From Denitratisoma oestradiolicum (GTDB taxonomy: Bacteria > Pseudomonadota > Gammaproteobacteria > Burkholderiales > Rhodocyclaceae): 64,000 bases of DNA. The translations under genes were made by a program, and so were the position numbers. How positions within the stretch are numbered: the first letter of the stretch is position 1; every line of letters starts with the position of its first letter. Below, one piece after another: positions 493 to 61,204 of the stretch. The stretch is taken from contig NZ_LR778301.1 in assembly GCF_902813185.1 (NCBI RefSeq), positions 1,488,001-1,552,000 on the forward strand, read 5' to 3'. Under the pieces are notes generated by a model. That model had not been told where the DNA came from, ran no database searches, and was given only the letters and a program-made list of their open reading frames with translations.

Positions 493-2760
493 TTACCACT
501 TGTAGCCAAAAGAGACGCCATACGTCCGGGGAGGTGCCCAGGTTGCAGTCCTGTAGAAGTAGAAATCGATGCCGTTCATTGATTTTTTCTCGTCGGTCAG
601 ATTCTTTACCCAGAAGGACGCTTCGGCGGCGCCGGGCCCCCCCACGGGGATATTGGCCAGCAGCAGGCGGGTGTTTAGCAGACCGATGGCTGAGATTTCC
701 GTCATCGACGCTACTGCACCACTGGCCGCAAGCGGTGAGTCGTAGCTCTTGTTGACGGCGTAGAGAAAGCGCTCCGACAGCCAGGTGTAGTCTGCGATTA
801 ACCGCAGCGTGCCCCAATCAGTCTTGGCCAGACGGCCATCAATGGCAAGGTTCAGAGTGTGCTTGGGGGCATAGGGCATTTCGCGATTGCTGGCGGTATT
901 GATCACGACACCTGCATTCGGGGGATTGATCCCCGCATCCAAATATTCATCGAACTTCGCATCCAGATAGCCGTAACTGCTAGTTAAGCGCCAGCCGTCG
1001 CTCATTTGCCAGGTCAGTTCAAGCTCAATGCCCTGTTGGGTGGCTTTGCCGGCGTTATATAAATTGGACTGTACCGAGCCGGGCGGGATCATCGTGAGTT
1101 GCATGTCGGTGATCTTGTTGTGGAAATAGGTCGCGTTGAACATGCCCCGGCCTTCGGCGAAATTGCTCTTCACCCCGAACTCGAGGGTCTGTGATTTTTC
1201 AGGTTGATAGGGGGTGCTCAGGGTTATCGGATTTGTTGCTTCGCCGTTCCAGCCTCCGCTTTTAAATCCCTTGGCCATGCGGGCATAAATATTGACCGTA
1301 TCACTGAGTTTGTAGATCGCACTCAAAGTGGGGGTGGTGGCGCTGAAGCCGGTCATGTATTCCACAGGGGCAACACGAGTTTCAAAAACAGGCCCCTGAT
1401 AACCAACGGTACCGTATTGGCTAGCCTGCAAACCACGATCTTCACGAGTGCGCCGAATGCCGGCGGTGAGGGTCAGATTGGGCGTGGCTTTCCAGTCCAA
1501 CTGACCGTAGATAGCTTTTTGCTTGGTAGTTACGCCGCTGTTGACGAAGCCGTTATCCCCATAAATGCCGCGCATATCGTAGGTGAAGCCATCTTCTTTG
1601 AAGATGTAGTATCCCGCCACATAGTTGAAGCGATCAGTATTGCCGACCCACTGGAATTCGTGCGACCAGGTTCTCAGATCAGTGTCCTGTCCCGTGACAA
1701 CAATGGGAAGGGGCGTCCCGTCCAGGTCCATTTGATCGCTATAGAAAAGCTTGCGGTAAGAGCCGATGTATTTGACGGTATTGCTCGGGTCGAGCTGATA
1801 GGTGGCGGTCAGAGCGTGGCCATCGACTTTCAGCTTCTGGTAGAAGGTTCCACCGGGATCGGCGGCGAAGGATTTGGGCCGGCTCGTGGAGGCACGGGAC
1901 GCCGTGCCCACATAACCCAGAGCTTCCAGATCGAGGCCACCGTACAATATGGTGCCGCTGCCGTTGGCTGCATAGAGCGTGGCAGCCGTGGGCATGGAGT
2001 CGGATTCGGTGTGATCGTATTTGTAATCCACCTGAAAATCGCGGCTGATGTCGAAGTTGGCTGCGAGGCGGAATGCTTGGCGGTCTTTGTCGCTGAAAGC
2101 GCGGCCATTGTCGTTTTTCAGCCAGCCGTCCTGCATTTCGTTACGCAGGGCGAAACTCAGGCTGGTGATGCCCATCTTGGGCAGATCGATGGACAGGCGT
2201 TCGACGTGATGGCCGAAGTTGCCAATCTCCAGATTGGCCGAACCGCTGAAAACGCCGGCAGGCTTGCGGGAAATGAAGTTGATCGCTCCGCCCAGCGTGT
2301 TGCGCCCGAAAAGCGTGCCCTGCGGGCCGCGCAGCACTTCGATGCGCTCCAGATCGACCATTTCCGACAGGTTGCCCAGGGATTTGGCGACATAGACACC
2401 ATCGATATACATGCCGACCGACGGGTCGACCAGTATCGATGGCTGACCGGTCGAGGCGCCGCGAATGCTGATCTGGGAAATCAGATCGTTGGCTGGCGAC
2501 CGGTTGACCACCACATTGGGTGCGAGGCCAGAGATGTCTGCGCCGCCCTCTATGCCCCGTGCCTCCAGTTGTCCGCCACTGATGGCGGAAATGGACAGCG
2601 GCACGTCCTGCAGGCGTTCAGCCCGTTTCTGGGCAGTGACGATAACTTCTTCCAGTACTGCTCCTTTTTCTGCAAGCGCCGTCATTGTTGTCCCAGCCAG
2701 GGCTGAGGCAATCAGTGTGGGAATGATGCGTGCTGCAAAGTGTTTATGTTGAATATTCAT
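493..2760 (-). CDS. TonB-dependent outer-membrane receptor
   Basis: This is a 755-residue outer-membrane gated channel. ATG 2760 was chosen over upstream in-frame starts because GGAGG lies just before it and a signal peptide follows (MNIQHKHFAARIIPTL to about residue 30). A TonB-box-like stretch LEEVIVTAQKR comes next. The plug domain (about 45-160) carries ISIRGAST, MYIDGVYV and LRGPQGTLFGRNTLGGAIN. The rest is a beta-barrel ending in an aromatic residue (FGYKW). The EVIVTAQKR-type receptors are common in bacteria taking up large hydrophobic or aromatic compounds as well as iron chelates. No siderophore genes are nearby, and the downstream oxidoreductases suggest an organic substrate; that is inference. 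Confidence 0.93.
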   Translation of the reverse strand: MNIQHKHFAARIIPTLIASALAGTTMTALAEKGAVLEEVIVTAQKRAERLQDVPLSISAISGGQLEARGIEGGADISGLAPNVVVNRSPANDLISQISIRGASTGQPSILVDPSVGMYIDGVYVAKSLGNLSEMVDLERIEVLRGPQGTLFGRNTLGGAINFISRKPAGVFSGSANLEIGNFGHHVERLSIDLPKMGITSLSFALRNEMQDGWLKNDNGRAFSDKDRQAFRLAANFDISRDFQVDYKYDHTESDSMPTAATLYAANGSGTILYGGLDLEALGYVGTASRASTSRPKSFAADPGGTFYQKLKVDGHALTATYQLDPSNTVKYIGSYRKLFYSDQMDLDGTPLPIVVTGQDTDLRTWSHEFQWVGNTDRFNYVAGYYIFKEDGFTYDMRGIYGDNGFVNSGVTTKQKAIYGQLDWKATPNLTLTAGIRRTREDRGLQASQYGTVGYQGPVFETRVAPVEYMTGFSATTPTLSAIYKLSDTVNIYARMAKGFKSGGWNGEATNPITLSTPYQPEKSQTLEFGVKSNFAEGRGMFNATYFHNKITDMQLTMIPPGSVQSNLYNAGKATQQGIELELTWQMSDGWRLTSSYGYLDAKFDEYLDAGINPPNAGVVINTASNREMPYAPKHTLNLAIDGRLAKTDWGTLRLIADYTWLSERFLYAVNKSYDSPLAASGAVASMTEISAIGLLNTRLLLANIPVGGPGAAEASFWVKNLTDEKKSMNGIDFYFYRTATWAPPRTYGVSFGYKW

Positions 2761-2857
2761 CGGTCGTCCTCCGTTCATGGTTATTGAAGTACCTGCCTCA
2801 CTTGCCGACGCATTGCGCGCCGTAAACCCTTTGCTGCTATGAATCGGGAATCCGTGT

Positions 2858-3376
2858 TCAAGGCTGGGCCGGCAGTCGCCGGTAGATGCCTTTGAAGACG
2901 GTGGTCCAGGTGCGGCCGCCGTCGCTGCTGCTCTGTTCCAGTTGGCGCAGCTCGTCGGCGGAGACCGCACGCAGTACGTTGCGACCGCGTCGTCCCGGAC
3001 CCGCCGCGTCGGTCAGTACCATGCCGCCCAGGCCGGGGCGGCCCTGGCGGTCGCTGCGTTCACTGTTGCTGTCGGCCCAGAGCTGGCGCCAGCGGCCGCG
3101 CTCGGGCTGGTAGACGATCAGGCTCTTGCCGCTGCCGCCGTCGGCACCGCTCCATTCCTCGAGCAGGGCGCAGCCGCCGGCGATTGCGCTGATGCGGTTG
3201 TTGCCGACCACCGTGTTGTCGGCGGTGCTGACCTGCCAGTGGCCGATCCAGAAGTCGAATTGGCGATGGGCGGCGCTTTGGCACGGTTTGTTCGTGGTAT
3301 CGGCCGCGGCGCCGGTCGTGGCGGCGGCCAGGCCCAACAGCAGGCCGGCCAAGGGGCACAGTCGGGAGGTGCTCAT
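2858..3376 (-). CDS. Exported DUF1579-like protein
   Basis: This 172-residue protein has an apparent signal peptide (residues 1-25, ending TTGAAA). The mature part begins with a conserved-looking block, FDFWIGHWQV, and has NRISAIAGGCALLEEWSG and a closing TVFKGIYRR. This layout resembles small beta-rich proteins of the DUF1579 type; no catalytic function is established for them. Its start overlaps the stop of the upstream quinoprotein gene by 4 bp (ATGA), so the two are translationally coupled and probably work in the same periplasmic process. Nothing identifies a ligand. Confidence 0.75.
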   Translation of the reverse strand: MSTSRLCPLAGLLLGLAAATTGAAADTTNKPCQSAAHRQFDFWIGHWQVSTADNTVVGNNRISAIAGGCALLEEWSGADGGSGKSLIVYQPERGRWRQLWADSNSERSDRQGRPGLGGMVLTDAAGPGRRGRNVLRAVSADELRQLEQSSSDGGRTWTTVFKGIYRRLPAQP

Positions 3377-5286
3377 AGGCCGTCCACCGTGTAGACCAGC
3401 AGCGCGTTGCCGGGACGGCGCTGGCTGGCGGCGCCCGATGCCACATAGACCGCGCCATTCACCACCGCCTGGGCATAGCCGCTGACCGCGCCGCCCTCGG
3501 CCTCGATGCCATTCACCGCCGGGAATTTGCGCGCGGTATCGGTCTCCCAGAGGATCTTGCCGCTGGCGTTGTCGTAGGCCCGCAGATGGCCATCCCAGGA
3601 ACCGACCAAGGCGAAGTCCGGCAGCAGCGCCACCGAGGCCGACTGGGCGGCATGGCAGCCGCGCTCGCCCCAGGTGCAGCGGGGCGGGGGGGCCGGGGTG
3701 CGCCAGAGTTGCTTGCCGTTGGCCAGGTTCAGCTTCAACACGGCCCCGGGGTTCTGGCCGGGCTTGGCATCCACGTCGCCGATGGGAACGTAGAGCTGGC
3801 CGCCGACACTGGCCATGCCGTACATGATGCCGCCCACGTCACCGCCGTAGGCGACCTTGTTGCGCCAGACGATGCGGCCTTGCCGGTCCGGGTCCATGGC
3901 GTAGACCACGCCGTATTTCTGGCCGGCCATCACCAGTTGGCGGCCATTGGGTAGCGTTGCCAGGAGGGGCGGTGAGCCGAAACCAAAGATGTTGCGGCAG
4001 TCGGTGTCCTCGCCCCGGGCCTTGCATTCGGCGTCACGCACCTTGGCCGGGGGCAGGGTGGACTGTTGCCAGCGTACCGCACCGGTGGCCATGTCGAAGG
4101 CCATGATGGAGTAGGCGCCCTTGGGATCGTCCATGTCGTAGGACTCGCCCGTGGCGGCATAGACCACCTGGCGCTTCACGTCCGCCACCAGAGGGGTCCA
4201 GATGGACGCGCCGGCGGGGCTGGAAAGCGGCAGGCCCTTGGCCGTCTTCTTCCCGCTGGGCTGGGGGGGCTGGGCAATGGTGTGGGTCTTCCACAGCAGC
4301 TTGCCGCTGGTGGCATCAAGCGCCACTACGCCACCACGGAAGGTGCAGCAGGGATAGTCCGGATCGTGGGTGAGGGGGTCCTCCATGGATGAAATCGGTA
4401 CGAACAAGCGGTCGCCAGCCAGGGTTGGGCTGGCTGTGAGTCGCGTCAGTACATGCTCCTCCACTTCGGTCTTCCAGCGCAGGGCGCCGGTGTTGGCGTC
4501 AATCCCGTAGACCGTGCCCTTGGTGTCGCCAACAAAGACCAAGGGCTTGTTGGGCTGGGAGGCGGGGGCGCCGACGCTGACGCGACGGATGCTGCGCTCG
4601 GTGGCGTAGATCCAGCGGGTGCAGCCGGTCTGGGCGTCAAGGGACACCACATCGCCGGTGCCGGTGGAGGTGAACACGCGGCCGCCAGCGACGATGGGTT
4701 CGCTACCGATGCCGCCGGGATAGGCGTAGGCCCACTTCAGCTTGAGTCGCGGTAGGTCGCTGGCGCCGATGCCAGGACGGGGCTGGTGGCCGCTATTGGT
4801 CATGTCGCGGGCCAGGAAGGGCCAGTCGTCGGGGCCGATTCGTACCGGGGTGCCGGGGGTGGTGCACAGATTGGGCAGGGGCTTGGGTCCGGTGCCGGGC
4901 TGGCGTCCCGTGAGGTGGGTGGCCACGGCGCGGATCTCTGCTTCGCTCAGTCCCGCAGCCTGGGCCATGGGCTTCATCGGTCCGCTGGTGAGCACGTTGA
5001 CGATGGATTCAGGACTGCGAAAGCCCAGTGAGTTGGTGGGTGGAATGCGGCCTTGAGGGTGATCGTGGCAGACCGCACAGGTCTTGGCGAAGATCGCCGC
5101 CCCCTGCTTGCCGATGACGACGTCCTGGTCGTTCACGGGGGCGAAGACTGGGGATGAGACGGAACTGGCAGTCCAGACGCCGGCCTCCTTGGCTTCGGCA
5201 TGGTCGGGCAGCTTATCGGCCCGGGCCGGCAGCGCCTGGGTCAGGGCCAGTAGCGACAGGGTGATACGGAGGGACGTGGTAGTCAT
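3373..5286 (-). CDS. Periplasmic PQQ-type quinoprotein with N-terminal cytochrome c domain
   Basis: This is a 637-residue exported protein. The signal peptide covers residues 1-23 (LSLLALTQALPARA). A cytochrome c domain follows, with CAVCH at 70-74 and candidate Met ligands at 104/107. A beta-propeller of the PQQ-dehydrogenase type fills the rest, with repeated blades such as VVSLDAQTGCTRWIYA, VYGIDANTGALRWKT and VVALDATSGKLLWKT. The haem-first, propeller-second order is that of polyvinyl-alcohol dehydrogenase-like quinoproteins, which oxidise secondary alcohols and pass electrons to the haem. PQQ synthesis genes are not in the window. The substrate is unknown, and a structural rather than catalytic propeller cannot be excluded. 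Confidence 0.87.
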   Translation of the reverse strand: MTTTSLRITLSLLALTQALPARADKLPDHAEAKEAGVWTASSVSSPVFAPVNDQDVVIGKQGAAIFAKTCAVCHDHPQGRIPPTNSLGFRSPESIVNVLTSGPMKPMAQAAGLSEAEIRAVATHLTGRQPGTGPKPLPNLCTTPGTPVRIGPDDWPFLARDMTNSGHQPRPGIGASDLPRLKLKWAYAYPGGIGSEPIVAGGRVFTSTGTGDVVSLDAQTGCTRWIYATERSIRRVSVGAPASQPNKPLVFVGDTKGTVYGIDANTGALRWKTEVEEHVLTRLTASPTLAGDRLFVPISSMEDPLTHDPDYPCCTFRGGVVALDATSGKLLWKTHTIAQPPQPSGKKTAKGLPLSSPAGASIWTPLVADVKRQVVYAATGESYDMDDPKGAYSIMAFDMATGAVRWQQSTLPPAKVRDAECKARGEDTDCRNIFGFGSPPLLATLPNGRQLVMAGQKYGVVYAMDPDRQGRIVWRNKVAYGGDVGGIMYGMASVGGQLYVPIGDVDAKPGQNPGAVLKLNLANGKQLWRTPAPPPRCTWGERGCHAAQSASVALLPDFALVGSWDGHLRAYDNASGKILWETDTARKFPAVNGIEAEGGAVSGYAQAVVNGAVYVASGAASQRRPGNALLVYTVDGL

Positions 5287-5322: not shown

Positions 5323-6693
5323 TCAGGTGAAGCCCAGCTTGTCCACCAGACGGGCGGCGGGAATCATCAGCCGGCGAACCTTGAATTCGAAAAGGCCCGG
5401 GAAGCGGACCGGGACCGGTGCTTCCAGGGGCAGGACGCAGTCTTCCGGGCGGCCGGCGGCCAGGGCGCGGGCCAGGCTCATGCCCAGCAGGGGACCCATG
5501 ACATTGCCCCAGGTGCCCAGGTTCATCAGGGCGAAGACGTTGTCCTCCACCCGGTAGAACTTTGCGTAGTCCTGGTGGTAAACGTGGGAGGAACTCGCCG
5601 TCACCCCCGTCCAATAGGACTCCAGTTCCAGGGTGAAAGCCCGGGTCTGGGGGAAGGTGCGGTGCAGGTAGCGCAGGAGATAGTTGAAATGGGTCTCCGC
5701 GTTGCCGGCCTGGCCCGGACCGGGGATGGTGGCGGTGACAAGGCGCTTGCGGCCGTCGATCACCAGGGGATAGAGCCCCGTAGGAAACTGAGTGAATACC
5801 ACCCGGCTCGGGTTCAGGGTTTCCAGCAGGGCATCGGGCAGGGGCCGGGTGGCGAGACCGCAGGCCACCAGGGGGTATTGGGTCTGGGCCAGTTGCGGGA
5901 AGAAGGCGTTGCCGGCATGGCCGCTGGTGCACACCACGATGCGGCGGGCCAGCACGGTGCCCCAGGGTGTGGTCACGCGCCAGCGCTGGCCGTCCTTTTC
6001 ACAGGCGCTGACCGGCGAGTCGCCGTACACCCGGGCACCAAGGCGGGCGGCGGCCGCCACCATGCCCTGGGTGAAGAGGTAGGGATTGACCCGGCCACCT
6101 TCTTTCCAGTGAATACCCCAGCGGTAGCGCTCGGTACCGAGCATGGTCCGGACCTGAGCGGCGTCCACCGGATTCACCTCGTAGCCGAAGTCGCGCCAGC
6201 GCCTGGCCTTCTGTTCCAGTGCGGCAGAGGGCTGGAAGGCGGCTTCGAGGAGGCCGTCGGGGGAGGCGTCGCCCTGGATGCCATGCTTCAGGCACAGGTC
6301 GTAGACGATGTTGCGATGCTGGATCAGGGCATCGACCAGGCGCCTGCCCTTGTCGGGCCAGGCCTGCAGGGGTTCAAGGACGTCGAGGAAGGGCTGGACG
6401 TGGCCCGCATTGCGACCCGAGGCGCCGTTGGCCGGCTGCCTGGCTTCCAGGGTCACGGTGGCCACACCCAGTTCCGCCAGGTGCAGGCTGACCGAGGCGC
6501 CGGCCAGACCGGCGCCGATGACGACGACGTCGGTTTCGATGTGGCCTGCCAGGGCAGGGTAGAGCGGAAGGGGTTCTTCGGGTGGCCAAGCGCTGCAATG
6601 GACGGGCACCGTGCCGCTCTCGTAGGCTAGGGTGGCCTGGCGGGGGTCAGGGCGGCGGATTAGGTCGGCGGACCCTGGGGCGATGCGGTTCAA
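5323..6693 (-). CDS. FAD-dependent amine/amino-acid oxidoreductase (DadA/PuuB-like)
   Basis: This is a 456-residue DAO-family flavoprotein. The dinucleotide-binding motif VVVIGAGLAGASVSLHLAE is at about 56-74, followed by the FAD-contact block GASGRNAGHVQ. An N-terminal arm of some 50 residues before the Rossmann fold matches the layout of gamma-glutamylputrescine oxidase (PuuB) better than D-amino-acid dehydrogenase. I place the start at TTG 6693 because GGAGG lies 7 bases upstream; the longer reading frame runs back through an operator-like dyad and a repeat. The enzyme would oxidise a C-N bond to an imine. It is the first gene of a leftward unit that continues towards the quinoprotein. Confidence 0.85.
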   Translation of the reverse strand: MNRIAPGSADLIRRPDPRQATLAYESGTVPVHCSAWPPEEPLPLYPALAGHIETDVVVIGAGLAGASVSLHLAELGVATVTLEARQPANGASGRNAGHVQPFLDVLEPLQAWPDKGRRLVDALIQHRNIVYDLCLKHGIQGDASPDGLLEAAFQPSAALEQKARRWRDFGYEVNPVDAAQVRTMLGTERYRWGIHWKEGGRVNPYLFTQGMVAAAARLGARVYGDSPVSACEKDGQRWRVTTPWGTVLARRIVVCTSGHAGNAFFPQLAQTQYPLVACGLATRPLPDALLETLNPSRVVFTQFPTGLYPLVIDGRKRLVTATIPGPGQAGNAETHFNYLLRYLHRTFPQTRAFTLELESYWTGVTASSSHVYHQDYAKFYRVEDNVFALMNLGTWGNVMGPLLGMSLARALAAGRPEDCVLPLEAPVPVRFPGLFEFKVRRLMIPAARLVDKLGFT

Positions 6694-6781
6694 GCGTAAA
6701 CCTCCAGCACTTATTCGGTCATCAGGCCCCGGGCGGGCCGCGGGCGATGGCTGGAATGCTACGGAGGAGGAAAAATGCCCT

Positions 6782-6801
6782 CTAGTACCAAGTGGTACCA
6801 G
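6782..6801. promoter_or_regulatory. Candidate operator dyad TACCA-AG-TGGTA
   Basis: The core dyad is at 6786-6797 and extends to 9-bp arms with one mismatch. It lies about 90-100 bp before the TTG start of the FAD oxidoreductase. The same core, differing by one spacer base, recurs at 8891-8902 before the MFS gene, with both regulator genes in between. The binding protein is inferred to be the LuxR- or TetR-type regulator. Confidence 0.5.
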
Positions 6802-6846
6802 GCGGTCCTGGGGGACGGCTAAGGAAGCACTGAAAAAGTCCCAATG

Positions 6847-6916
6847 CGTCATTCCGGCGAACGCCGGAATCCAAGAAAAACAACGCACTGGACACCGGCT
6901 TTCGCCGGTGTGACGG
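6847..6916. repeat. Palindromic dispersed repeat (two-hairpin unit)
   Basis: Two hairpins, one built on CATTCCGGCG/CGCCGGAAT and the other on ACACCGGC/GCCGGTGT, flank a short AT-richer spacer. This is the widespread proteobacterial CATTCC-type intergenic repeat. It lies between the convergent end of the LuxR-type gene and the promoter of the FAD oxidoreductase. Related units are at 30012-30083 and 61039-61110. Confidence 0.8.
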
Positions 6917-6933
6917 ACTTGATCGGTGTTTCC

Positions 6934-8076
6934 CTAGAGCAGGAAGGAGAGGCTGCGCAGCATCAGCCGGACCAGTTCGGTCTGGCTGGCTACACCCATC
7001 TTGGCGTAGATCTTTTTCGAGTAGTTGCGGGCGGCGGTTTCGGCGATGGCCATCTCTCCGGCGGCCTCGGCGATGGTGTGGCCATAGGCCAGGTGCAGAG
7101 CCAGGGTGGACTCCTGGCGGGTGAGGTCGAAGAGCTGGGCGATGCGTCCCAGGGTGTGGCTGCGGGTCGGGCGCAGGGCCTCCAGGTTGGCCGTCAAATC
7201 GGAGAGGTAGACGATGGCGCTGGGGGCCTGCCCCCCCCGGTAGTAAGGCTGGGGCGGTGCGGGGTAAATCAGCAGGCCCAGCAGTCGTCCCTGGCAGTCG
7301 CCCAGGCGCACCAGTTCGCCTTCGCTCCGGCTGGTACTGCTGCGGGCGGTGGTCACGACGTTAACGGCCGCCTCCAGGGCCCGTTGGGCCGGGCGGTCGC
7401 TCAGGGTGATGCGGCCGCGGAAGATGGAGATGCCCGTCCAGTGGCCGATCAGGGCGGTGGCGATGTGGTTGAGGTGGATCACCTCGCCCTCCTCGTTGAG
7501 CAGGGCACAGCCCAGGGCGAAGTGGTCCACCATGCCCTCGTAGATGGCCTTTTCCGAAGCCTGCCGCTGCAGCTTTGCGTAGAGGGCCAGGGCACGGTTC
7601 AGATGGGGCGACAGTTCTCGTATCAGCGCGATGTCGTCAGCGCTGAAGGGACGGTCGGAACTGGGGTGGCCGCGCACCACGTCCACCCAGCAGCGAATGC
7701 CATCCGGCTCGGCAAAGCAGATGCGCAGATTGTGGGCAAGACCCAGGTCACTCATGAAAGCATGCCATTTGCCTTTCATGGCGGCGACCTCGGTGATGCC
7801 CACTTCCCCTGGCGCCATGCGATCGGGACGGAAGGGGTCGTCCTCCATCAACTCGGCCCGATAGTGGGCTTCCACCGCCACCCAGTCGATCCGGTCGTCG
7901 GGAATCTGTGCCATGAGGTAGGTGTCGCTTTTTTCGTTTTCGGCATGGTGCAGGGTGATCACCACGTTGCGGGCGTCAAGCACCTGGCGCAATTCCTCGG
8001 CGAAGCTCTGCCAGGGTTTGGCCTCGACCGCGCCTTCGTAGGTCAGCCCGACCAGGGTGGCAAAGGCGTCCGTCAT
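6934..8076 (-). CDS. LuxR-family transcriptional regulator
   Basis: This is a 380-residue protein. The C-terminal 60 residues form a GerE/LuxR helix-turn-helix (LTRQESTLALHLAYGHTIAE, then ARNYSKKIYAKMGVASQTEL). The N-terminal 300 residues contain no recognisable phosphoacceptor receiver domain and look like a PAS/GAF-like sensory region, as in the solitary LuxR-type regulators often found in catabolic clusters. The start codon overlaps the tetR-type stop by one base (TGATG), so both regulators are made from one message. It is the best candidate to bind the TACCA-N2-TGGTA dyads on either side. Confidence 0.88.
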   Translation of the reverse strand: MTDAFATLVGLTYEGAVEAKPWQSFAEELRQVLDARNVVITLHHAENEKSDTYLMAQIPDDRIDWVAVEAHYRAELMEDDPFRPDRMAPGEVGITEVAAMKGKWHAFMSDLGLAHNLRICFAEPDGIRCWVDVVRGHPSSDRPFSADDIALIRELSPHLNRALALYAKLQRQASEKAIYEGMVDHFALGCALLNEEGEVIHLNHIATALIGHWTGISIFRGRITLSDRPAQRALEAAVNVVTTARSSTSRSEGELVRLGDCQGRLLGLLIYPAPPQPYYRGGQAPSAIVYLSDLTANLEALRPTRSHTLGRIAQLFDLTRQESTLALHLAYGHTIAEAAGEMAIAETAARNYSKKIYAKMGVASQTELVRLMLRSLSFLL

Positions 8077-8750
8077 CAGGGGCGCCCCATGAGCAGGGGC
8101 CGGCCTGGGGGCGTTGTGGCAATGCAGGCCTGTATCAGAAAATCGGTCAGCCTCATGACCTCCTGGTCACTGGGATAGCGCTTCTCGAACATGATGGCCG
8201 TCAGCAGGGGCGCGGACAGCAGGCGCATGACTATTTCATCATCCAGCGTGCCGGGGATCTCGCCTCGTGACTTGGCCCGTGTCATTACCTGTTTCATCTG
8301 CTCCTGGATCGGTAGCCAGGATTCCCGTGCGCTGCGTGGCAGATCGGCGTCGGTGGCGATGGCCAGGGCCCCGTTGAGGGCCACTTCCGTTGGATCGTTG
8401 AAGAAGTTGCGTAGCACCAGTCCCAGGCAGAACAGGTCGCTGTGCCAGTGTCCCGTGTCCGCCACCTGGATCCGCGAGTTGTGTTCGCGGAAGGCCTCGT
8501 TGATGAGGGCCTGCCGTGTAGGCCAGCGGCGGTAGATGGTGGTCTTGTGGACACCGGTGAGTTCAACGATGTCCTTGATATCGAAATGGAAGTTGCCTGC
8601 CCGCATCAGGCTCAGCACCGCCTCGGCGACCTGCTGGCGGATACGCTCGCTACGGCCACCGGTGCGCACCGAGCCCCGGGGCGGGGCGACGGTGGGCGGC
8701 TGTTCCTTGTTCATCGAGCGGGTAGAGGATGCTGACTGGGGCGTGTCCAT
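8076..8750 (-). CDS. TetR-family transcriptional regulator
   Basis: This is a 224-residue protein with an N-terminal TetR DNA-binding domain at about 35-80 (RIRQQVAEAVLSLMRAG, then DIVELTGVHKTTIYRRWPTR). The helical ligand-binding half is divergent, as usual. The first 28 residues are a polar tail before the DNA-binding domain, so a later start is possible. The gene is divergent from the MFS permease with 227 bp between them. A TGACA-N7-TGTCA dyad sits immediately upstream of its start, suggesting autoregulation. The first gene of a two-regulator unit with the LuxR-type gene. Confidence 0.9.
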   Translation of the reverse strand: MDTPQSASSTRSMNKEQPPTVAPPRGSVRTGGRSERIRQQVAEAVLSLMRAGNFHFDIKDIVELTGVHKTTIYRRWPTRQALINEAFREHNSRIQVADTGHWHSDLFCLGLVLRNFFNDPTEVALNGALAIATDADLPRSARESWLPIQEQMKQVMTRAKSRGEIPGTLDDEIVMRLLSAPLLTAIMFEKRYPSDQEVMRLTDFLIQACIATTPPGRPLLMGRP

Positions 8751-8755
8751 TGTGG

Positions 8756-8772
8756 TGACAGAGCTTGTGTCA
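8756..8772. promoter_or_regulatory. Candidate TetR-type operator TGACA-N7-TGTCA
   Basis: A 17-bp dyad with perfect 5-bp arms ends 5 bp before the TetR start codon, inside a locally AT-rich promoter region (about 8772-8830). Position and symmetry fit an autoregulatory operator. The evidence is positional only. Confidence 0.4.
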
Positions 8773-8890
8773 AAAATAGGTTTTAAGTCAATTTACCTTA
8801 GTTAATGCAACTATTGGTGATTTTGTGAATTGAGTGCAGGGTCGGCTCGTGGCTACTGTCCCGTGTTGTTGCCATCCCGGTCGCTGTCGG

Positions 8891-8902
8891 TACCAACTGG
8901 TA
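8891..8902. promoter_or_regulatory. Candidate operator dyad TACCA-AC-TGGTA
   Basis: Second copy of the dyad seen at 6786-6797, with identical 5-bp arms. It lies 76 bp upstream of the MFS start codon, in the divergent region between the TetR-type gene and the permease gene. The shared site suggests that the permease and the FAD oxidoreductase answer to the same regulator. Confidence 0.5.
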
Positions 8903-8977
8903 CTGGAGGGCTGGCCTGGCGCTGGCTAGCATGGCTGCGATTGTCCGGGCTGGGAGTTCCGGCCACGCCACGACTCG

Positions 8978-10228
8978 ATGACCGCAATGAAACATACCTT
9001 CGCCGATGCCCGCTTCCGTTCTGCCTGGTGCCTGGTCCTGGGCTTGGCCCTGGTGCTCTGCATCAGTTTCGGCACCACCCTCAATGCCCTCGGCGTGTTC
9101 ACCCTGCCGATCATCGCGGCCTTCCATTGCAGCCACGAAGAGGCGGCCCACGTCGCTACCGTTTTCCTCTTCGCCATGACCCTGGCCATGCCCGCGGCCG
9201 GCTGGTTGCTGGACCGGGTTGCGCCGCGCCCGGTGATGGCTGCCGGCGCCCTGCTGACCGTGATCGGCTATCTGTATGCGGCGCGCAGTTCCGACCTGGA
9301 TCTGTTCACCACGGCCATCGCCCTGGGGGGCATCGGCATCGGCATGTCGACCTACATTCCTGCTGTCACCCTGGTCAGCCACTGGATTCCGCCGCGGCAG
9401 CAGGGCCTGGCCTTCGGCATTCTGCTCGCTGCGGTCTCCCTCGGTGGCATGGTCTTCCCGGTGCTGCTGACCCGCATCATCGTCGCCTTCGACTGGCGCA
9501 CGGCCATGACGATGGTGGCCGCGTTGATCTTCTGTATCTGCCTGCCGCTGCTGCTGTGGCTGGCGCGCATGCCGCCTGCACACCCGACAGAGTCGGCGCG
9601 GCCGGCCCCGGCGCTGGGCCACGGCATCGTCCAGGCCCTGCGCATGCCCAGCTACTGGCTCTGGATCGCGATGCTGATGCTGATCACCATGAGCAGCCTC
9701 GGGGTCTATATGGCCCTCATCCCCTATCTCGTTTCGGTCGGCTATTCGGCGGACCACGCCGCCCTGGTCAATGCCGGAGCGGGGGCGGCGACTCTCGCCG
9801 GCAATTTCCTCTTCGGTGTCCTCAGCGCCCGTTGGGGGACGGAGCGCACCCTGCTTGCCGGCACCGTCGTTGCGGCGGCCGGCATCCTCTTTCTTCTTGG
9901 TGCTCATGACCCGGCCTTAGGGTTGGGGGCTGTGGCGCTGTTTGCTCTGGTCTGGGGCAGCACCTTCAACCTGGCCAACCAGCTTTCCCCGGCCATGCTG
10001 CTCGAGTCCATGGGGCAGCGCAATTTCGGCAGCCTGCTCGGCATCGGCAACCTGATCGCTGGCGTCGGTTCCGCCTTCGGCCCCGAGATCGTCGGCTATC
10101 TGGTGGACCTCACCCATGCCTACACGCTGCCCCTGTTGTTGTGCGCCGCGCTGATGCTGGCGGCCTTGCTGCCGATCGCCCTGTTGCACGGGGTGCGGCA
10201 AAAGCCGGCAGAGGAGGCTTGGTGCTGA
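8978..10228 (+). CDS. MFS transporter
   Basis: This is a 416-residue permease with about 12 hydrophobic helices. The first cytoplasmic loop carries DRVAPRPVM after helix 2, the usual MFS A-motif position. The sequence GLALVLCISFGTTLNALGVF forms helix 1. The family resembles oxalate/formate and monocarboxylate-type exchangers. ATG 8978 is used; ATG 8987 is an equally possible start and neither has a strong ribosome binding site. An operator-like dyad lies upstream. The RidA-family gene follows 81 bp downstream and is probably co-transcribed. The substrate is unknown but is presumably that of the neighbouring oxidases. Confidence 0.88.
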   Translation: MTAMKHTFADARFRSAWCLVLGLALVLCISFGTTLNALGVFTLPIIAAFHCSHEEAAHVATVFLFAMTLAMPAAGWLLDRVAPRPVMAAGALLTVIGYLYAARSSDLDLFTTAIALGGIGIGMSTYIPAVTLVSHWIPPRQQGLAFGILLAAVSLGGMVFPVLLTRIIVAFDWRTAMTMVAALIFCICLPLLLWLARMPPAHPTESARPAPALGHGIVQALRMPSYWLWIAMLMLITMSSLGVYMALIPYLVSVGYSADHAALVNAGAGAATLAGNFLFGVLSARWGTERTLLAGTVVAAAGILFLLGAHDPALGLGAVALFALVWGSTFNLANQLSPAMLLESMGQRNFGSLLGIGNLIAGVGSAFGPEIVGYLVDLTHAYTLPLLLCAALMLAALLPIALLHGVRQKPAEEAWC

Positions 10229-10309: not shown

Positions 10310-10729
10310 ATGCCCATCCAGCACATCAATCCCCCTGGCCTGCTGCAGTTCGACGCCATGAGCCAGGTCGTCGTCGCTTCCGGCGGACGGACCGTGTATA
10401 TCGCCGGCCAGTCCGCCAGCGACGTGAACTTCGAAGTGGTGGGCGGCAACGACTACTACGCCCAGTCGGTGCAGGCGCTGCGCAATCTGCGCACCGCGGT
10501 GGAAGCCGCAGGCGGAAGTGTCGAGAACATCGTCAGCAGCACCGTTTATCTGAAGAACCTGACGCCGGAGATCGCCGGCAGGTTTCTTGAAGCCCTGGCG
10601 ATCGCTTGCGAGGGCAAGTCTTTCCCGCCCCACGCCTTTTCCCTGATTGGCGTAGCTTCCCTCGCCGGTGCCGATCTCCTGGTGGAGATCACCGCGGTGG
10701 CGGTGATCGACGCCGCGGTCGCAGCGTGA
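10310..10729 (+). CDS. RidA/YjgF-family protein lacking the catalytic arginine
   Basis: This 139-residue protein covers the whole YjgF fold: VYIAGQSASD, then QALRNLRTAVEAAGGSVENI and the strand VYLKNLTPE. AGGAAAA lies before ATG 10310. In archetypal RidA the imine-deaminating arginine sits in a PARSCVEVARL-like block. Here the block reads HAFSLIGVASL, with Phe where Arg is expected. It therefore belongs to one of the Rid subfamilies without the enamine/imine deaminase residue, and its chemistry is unclear. A strong terminator follows, making this the last gene of the MFS unit. Confidence 0.85.
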   Translation: MPIQHINPPGLLQFDAMSQVVVASGGRTVYIAGQSASDVNFEVVGGNDYYAQSVQALRNLRTAVEAAGGSVENIVSSTVYLKNLTPEIAGRFLEALAIACEGKSFPPHAFSLIGVASLAGADLLVEITAVAVIDAAVAA

Positions 10730-24409: not shown

Positions 24410-24440
24410 GGCCCCCGGCGGGTCCCAACTGGTACATGCG

Positions 24441-60798: not shown

Positions 60799-61204
60799 GG
60801 AAAGGTTCTATGGCCAATGAACATCAGTAATAAGAACGGACTCCATCGAATCATATCGCATACCGACCGGCAGCATCTGGCCGATAGTGTGTCTTGTCTG
60901 TTGCCAAGCCCCGCCGCTCAAGCCTCAGTAGCAGATGCGCCCCGATCTTTCCTGCCCGTGGTCGTCCACCAGGGCAATTGCATGAATGATGAATGTATAA
61001 AAATCAGTACTCCACGAATCCATTCTCACCCCCCAAACCGTCGTCCCGGCGCAGGCCGGGACCCAGTTTGTGCACTAAAACCTGGATTCCGGCCTGTGCC
61101 GGAATGACGATATCGGAATTTCCCGACAGATTGGGATGACGAAAACATTCATGCGATCGCCCTGGGTCGTCCGCCCTTGCTGAACCGAACATCGCCCCCG
61201 ACCC
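60799..61204. other. Intergenic stretch with one dispersed repeat
   Basis: Nothing here looks like a gene: the only sizeable frame (60817-61107) draws its C-terminus from a repeat. 61039-61110 is a CATTCC-type two-hairpin repeat (CGTCCCGGCG/CGGGACCCAG and GGATTCCGGCC/CCGGAATGACG). The rest shows no clear feature. Confidence 0.6.

Follow-up and report, generated by a model that had tools for sequence, protein, structure and literature searches.

Twin GTACCA-N2-TGGTAC dyads before two operons of Denitratisoma oestradiolicum and their probable reader, a LuxR-type regulator

Two operons of Denitratisoma oestradiolicum are each preceded by a perfect 14-bp dyad, GTACCA-N2-TGGTAC, and in relatives this dyad recurs at a fixed distance from a TANNAT element and in company with the gene for one LuxR-type regulator. 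From these comparisons we consider it probable (roughly 0.8) that the LuxR-type protein encoded at the locus reads both dyads and activates both operons in a class II layout. The analysis covered a window of 64,000 nucleotides (the whole stretch of DNA under study, to which unprefixed coordinates refer) together with the genome around it and sets of related genomes.

Results

Genes of the locus

The proposed reader of both dyads is a LuxR-type regulator of 380 aa (6934..8076, minus strand). It ends in a GerE helix-turn-helix (HTH) domain at residues 318-371 (Pfam 28.4 bits, cut-off 23.5), the only Pfam match at E≤0.001; no autoinducer-binding and no receiver domain appeared in that search. In a fold model of moderate quality (mean pLDDT 81.7, pTM 0.61), an N-terminal alpha/beta part leads into a long helix, after which come a second part of mixed type and the HTH. 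A TetR-type regulator of 224 aa (8076..8750, minus strand) overlaps luxR at TGATG, which confirms the shared junction described in a previous sequence-only reading of this DNA. We counted it as a member of the TetR family with TetR_C_11 at 54.3 bits (cut-off 32) and TetR_N at only 21.4 bits, under the cut-off of 24.

Four minus-strand genes likely form one unit, operon 1. The first encodes an FAD-dependent oxidase of the DAO family (5323..6693; TTG start assumed; Pfam DAO 171.8 bits) and is followed by genes for a PQQ-type beta-propeller protein with a cytochrome c stretch (3373..5286; PQQ_2 121.2 bits, Cytochrome_CBB3 35 bits), a 172-aa protein with no Pfam match (2858..3376) that keeps the same place in two genomes of the same genus, G001 and G002, and a TonB-dependent receptor (493..2970; TonB_dep_Rec_b-barrel 141.8 bits), the true start of which is probably further in than the listed GTG. 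Operon 2, on the plus strand, consists of an MFS permease gene (8978..10228; MFS_1 166.5 bits) and a RidA-type gene (10310..10729; Ribonuc_L-PSP 65.3 bits).

The two dyads and their rarity

The 12-bp core TACCA-N2-TGGTA is present exactly at 6786-6797 (spacer AG) and 8891-8902 (spacer AC). That the arms of the two copies are identical had been reported before; the match extends further than was claimed, to perfect 14-bp dyads at 6785-6798 and 8890-8903. Site 1 (6785..6798, minus strand, exact) belongs to the FAD-oxidase promoter, where it reads GTACCACTTGGTAC followed by TAG on the minus strand. It lies between the 3' end of luxR and the FAD gene, all on the same strand, and its 12-mer ends 92 bp before the TTG start (6693), which is preceded by GGAGG. 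Site 2 (8890..8903, plus strand, exact) belongs to the MFS promoter, its 12-mer ending 75 bp before the ATG (8978); both distances are within the 75-100 bp reported for them. Site 2 falls in the divergent tetR/MFS region and so faces the tetR-luxR operon as well. The stretch from luxR to site 1 contains an exact stem-loop repeat, CATTCCGGCGAACGCCGGAATCC, at 6850-6872, with a second copy bearing three mismatches at 61084-61106 (minus strand).

Dinucleotide shuffling of the window, done 100 times, never produced the 14-mer. In the whole genome (4,293,412 bases, two contigs) the exact 12-mer has two copies, both at the studied locus. A composition model at the window's GC content of 63.6% predicts about 1.6 exact 12-mers and 0.16 exact 14-mers per genome, so the 12-mer count by itself is unsurprising. 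The surprising features are that both copies fall within 2.1 kb, that they extend to 14 bp and that they are conserved in relatives.

The dyad had been offered as a way to find other genes of the regulon, and in this genome it did not serve as one. There is no third exact 12-mer, and GTNCCANNTGGNAC has six matches, compared with four for the backward control. The four matches away from sites 1 and 2 (two inside ORFs, L139 and L142; one between ORFs at window 24422-24435; the fourth L136) show no TANNAT 22-24 nt away in either direction. A genome scan with one mismatch, suggested as a check, was uninformative since the core with up to one mismatch is found at 46 places (2 exact, 44 with one mismatch), fewer than the 67 for the pattern read backward.

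Conservation in relatives

Two genomes of the same genus, G001 and G002, keep the locus; further relatives came from a scan of genome contigs, with 80 of 165 relatives kept (L048 is the G002 locus again). In G001 (luxR 70% identical) tetR is kept, and an exact dyad precedes the MFS gene and a degenerate one, with two mismatches to the 14-mer, the FAD gene. G002 (luxR 66%) has no tetR, and luxR itself is divergent from the MFS gene; here the dyad is exact before the FAD gene and has one mismatch before the MFS gene. The FAD gene of G002 has a TTG start at the place that matches the TTG of the window.

The dyad is kept beside LuxR-type orthologues at 48-70% identity in Thauera, Aromatoleum, Comamonadaceae and others. 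Loci L049-L056 (luxR 48-60% identity), which come from a Giesbergeria MAG, Thauera terpenica, T. butanivorans, Aromatoleum toluclasticum, a Comamonadaceae bacterium, a Comamonas MAG and two further MAGs, all show, close to luxR or to a target gene, one or more dyads that differ from the 14-mer at one position at most. A dyad in L055 also precedes a TonB gene, which is followed by genes for a histone-deacetylase-like amidohydrolase and by FAD and PQQ genes, and one in L049 (L049:2865) precedes a saccharopine-dehydrogenase-like gene. The clusters of L052, L053 and L054 contain DUF1302 or DUF1329 proteins, with a GMC oxidoreductase in L054. Our guess from these gene families is that the module handles an amide- or amine-containing substrate, with amide cleavage, amine oxidation and imine removal by RidA.

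The sequence-only reading had pointed to relatives that keep the locus as a place where loss of the dyad would count against it. The comparison did not go against it: among the loci of 11 other genomes (L046, L047, L049-L057), a clear copy is lacking only in L057 (genome G438), which has the most distant luxR (46%). Its sole candidate is diverged, GTGGCA-CT-TGGCAC, with TAGCGT 23 nt on, before a RidA gene. The recognition helix has changed as well (RNYSIDIYQR vs RNYSKKIYAK), and we counted this pairing of a changed helix with a changed site in favour of LuxR as the reader.

The regulator is patchily distributed. At E≤1e-50 it was found in 3 of 61 relatives, 1 of 399 genomes of the order (the studied one only), 1 of 399 in the family of the Comamonas MAG (that MAG itself), 3 of 29 in the genus Thauera and 6 of 394 in the family of G433. 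Related LuxR-type proteins are numerous in the genus, with 6 matches in the studied genome (G000) and 13 in G002.

Promoter geometry

Both dyads are followed at 23 nt by TAGCAT, the predicted -10 element of the FAD-oxidase promoter (6756..6761, minus strand; putative start near 6749) and of the MFS promoter (8927..8932, plus strand; putative start near 8939). For comparison across loci we took the 25 sites with up to two mismatches to the 14-mer and dropped window 1942 (inside the TonB ORF), window 6795 (overlapping site 1) and L047 9122 (inside the FAD gene), leaving 22. A subset of 18, with direction set by an FAD, MFS, RidA or TonB gene, leaves out L049:2865, plus L049:66, L054:4900 and L056:5870 (direction in the 22-site set chosen with the -10 in view).

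With direction given by the target gene alone, 15 of the 18 sites have TANNAT beginning 23-24 nt past the 14-mer, and in 10 of the 18 it is TAGCAT. The exceptions are L054:7136, which has TAGACT, and both L056 sites, which have CACAAT. No site had TANNAT at the mirrored offsets (0/18), and the other offset pairs, tested across 70 nt, gave none either. Across the 22 sites TANNAT stands at this spacing in 17, compared with a mean of 0.11 and a maximum of 2 in 2000 shuffles. The flank after the dyad is also constrained: its first base is T in 22/22 and its third G in 20/22. The outer columns are only partly symmetric, with T-R-G after the dyad in most of the 22 sites and mixed Y/R before it. Conservation of the core is partly built in by the way sites were picked; that of the flank, the spacing and the co-occurrence with luxR is not.

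In the 15 sites with TANNAT at this spacing, the dyad centre lies 30-31 nt before it. With the first base of TANNAT taken as -12, the centre is predicted near -42.5 (23 nt) or -43.5 (24 nt). According to one article (PMC4471428), the usual, though not invariable, target of LuxR homologues is a 20-bp palindrome with its centre at -42.5. The predicted geometry is the layout of a class II activator standing in for the -35 element. A search for a sigma-70-like hexamer pair at 6650-9050 found none; this is weak support for an activator since only 0.5 was expected by chance.

The same sequence evidence would arise if the LuxR-type protein bound the dyads as a repressor, with its box covering the -35 region and blocking polymerase until a ligand released it, and a LuxR-like repressor in Comamonas receives a mention in PMC8700777. 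We consider this unlikely because the fixed spacing, the poor -10 and the lack of an evident -35 are what a class II activator needs, and a repressor could presumably do without a centre fixed near -42.5 in genus after genus.

Which regulator goes with the dyad

The dyads could instead be read by TetR, which would repress both operons while LuxR acts elsewhere. TetR proteins usually bind palindromes, and tetR is both coupled to luxR and divergent from the MFS gene. A TetR match (E≤1e-10) was found in 3 of the 13 genomes with this LuxR, namely the studied genome, G001 and G431 (Thauera terpenica), and at the locus itself only in the first two. Ten of the 13 have no TetR match at this threshold, yet nine of those ten show the dyad at their loci (the exception is L057 of G438). 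Because the dyads are kept with luxR where tetR is missing, the LuxR-type protein is their common partner, and this distribution led us to disfavour TetR as the reader. In addition, a 53% TetR paralogue in the studied genome stands beside other PQQ and TonB genes with no exact dyad there. Thus, the idea of a small regulon under the LuxR-type protein or TetR gains from the comparison with relatives for LuxR and loses for TetR, which is mostly absent.

A small point for TetR comes from T. terpenica, where an orphan exact dyad (L195 position 6689, G431:C35:96688) lies on a different contig from the luxR locus and about 0.75 kb from a 32-33% TetR homologue. No other exact 14-mer was found outside the luxR loci. 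The orphan has TAAGCT 24 nt on and no recognised target, and of eight window proteins only TetR matches there. Taken together, we regard TetR as the reader as improbable, more so than repression by LuxR.

The tetR/MFS region of the window also contains CAACTATTGGTG (8808-8819), kept in G001 as CAACTATTGTTG, which may serve as a TetR operator or as part of the tetR promoter. The candidate TetR operator CAACTATTGKTG is kept between the window and G001; exact matches in three genomes occur only there, and those with one mismatch are fewer than in the control. The 53% TetR paralogue of the studied genome lies at L159 (G000:C1:297000-311000), where its gene is divergent from TonB-receptor and PQQ/cytochrome c genes that are paralogous to those of operon 1, and no dyad accompanies them.

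Genome-wide searches

The composite motif TACCANNTGGTACTNGN{20,21}TANNAT was found in 5 of 394 genomes in the family of G433, all of them among the 6 with this LuxR (E≤1e-50), and in 0 of 388 genomes without it; the backward control gave 0. The sixth LuxR genome, Aromatoleum, has a one-base variant. The LuxR census and the motif scan used two samples of the same size and make. The studied genome is outside the 394-genome sample, and G001 and G002 are inside it as G946 and G886. Since the composite motif is absent from the 388 regulator-free genomes, it can mark the same module elsewhere. An orthologue that had no part in deriving the motif (G463, L184) has an exact dyad and TAGCAT at 24 nt before an MFS gene. 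The 13-mer TACCANNTGGTAC, searched on the forward strand in the nine genomes of named loci, gave 9 matches in six genomes, compared with 3 for the backward control. Two of the 9 do not lie at luxR loci; one is the T. terpenica orphan, and the other, in G434, is a 13-mer that falls short of a full dyad.

That the two copies are a chance match or functionless repeat debris, as the 1.6 exact 12-mers expected per genome and the stem-loop repeat close to site 1 might suggest, has close to no probability, being already contradicted by conservation at the same promoters across genera, the fixed TANNAT spacing and the co-occurrence with luxR (5/6 vs 0/388 genomes).

Near paralogues in the studied genome, G001, G002 and G028 (15 of 16 loci gave a luxR match), none of the loci combined a 6/6 palindrome with TANN[AC]T 22-25 nt further on. 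We noticed GTTCCA-N2-TGGGAC at L145 position 1501 (G002:C23:13983), followed by TGG and, 23 nt on, by CATAAT, before an ORF that by eye resembles a TonB-type receptor. This is possibly a third target in G002.

Related dyads beside cysD

Seventy distant homologues (L058-L127, 23-33% identity, among the matches listed) have the recognition helix ARNYSKK or ARNYSKR, a conservation that is built in because the scan patterns came partly from that helix. One dyad of the form [CA]TCCCA-N2-TGGGAG is present in 64 of these 70 loci, and in most of them luxR begins some tens of bases further on; the copies in L082 and L085 are far from luxR. L065, L078, L080 and L087 have GACCA-N2-TGGTC. Among the upstream ORFs, 53 of 63 resemble that of L058, which is CysD by NCBIfam. 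The distant homologues are mostly from sphingomonads and divergent from a cysD-like gene, with CTCCCA-N2-TGGGAG between. No clear peak for a fixed -10 spacing emerged in the 64 loci, so we do not extend the class II claim to the cysD-linked dyads. These particular dyads are absent from five paralogue loci of the studied genome and from the paralogue loci of G002. At L161 and L162, two own-genome paralogues with other helices, luxR is followed at 77 and 92 nt by a different perfect palindrome that has CCA-N2-TGG as its core, so that core and helix may not be strictly tied.

Discussion

We propose that the LuxR-type protein binds both dyads, probably as a dimer, favouring T-R-G on the promoter side. 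It would occupy the place of the -35 element, with the centre near -42.5 and ahead of a weak TAGCAT -10, and as a class II activator touching RNA polymerase would activate operon 1 (FAD oxidase, PQQ/cytochrome c protein, small protein and TonB receptor) and operon 2 (MFS and RidA). The inducing signal is probably a metabolite of the pathway. TetR would be an addition in two genomes of the genus and may tune the regulator operon through another operator.

As a comparison, dyad sites of the NarL/GerE family have a 7-2-7 arrangement, with TAC-containing half sites around a 2-base spacer. The sites described here share the TAC-containing half sites, the 2-base spacer and a GerE-type reader; the half site is a different one, and by Pfam the LuxR-type protein has no receiver domain. 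The quorum-sensing class II activators (LuxR, TraR and their kin) are alike in their GerE-type domain; for their dyad PMC4471428 gives a centre at -42.5, near the one predicted here. By contrast, the protein studied here has no autoinducer-binding Pfam match, its half sites are different, and its genes are catabolic and transport genes among which we noticed no synthase. The usual lux box is described in that article as a 20-bp palindrome; the dyad in the window is perfect over 14 bp, and further out the columns of the 22 sites are partly symmetric. TeiR, which PMC6895838 and PMC8700777 present as a LuxR-type activator of testosterone degradation in Comamonas testosteroni, is similar by description: in both cases a LuxR-type protein would switch on a catabolic pathway of a beta-proteobacterium.

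Position and conservation suggest, at about even odds, an undescribed family of LuxR-type proteins with a helix of the ARNYSKK-[IV]-Y type that would read dyads with a CCA-N2-TGG core and branch-specific outer bases. These would be GTA-CCA for the beta-proteobacterial catabolic module and CTC-CCA beside cysD (sulfate assimilation) in sphingomonads, and the residues before the shared helix (E-T-A-A vs V/I-E-T-A) would set the outer bases.

These results assign to the LuxR-type regulator a specific predicted DNA site together with a promoter geometry and a set of targets, and they indicate, from comparison alone, which member of the coupled pair is the reader. Fusing either promoter to a reporter could bring the inducer to light, and through it the compound on which the FAD oxidase/PQQ/RidA module acts. 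The dyad beside cysD hints at a wider family whose specificity code might be worked out; if this is true, it would be a natural rewired binding code inside one family.
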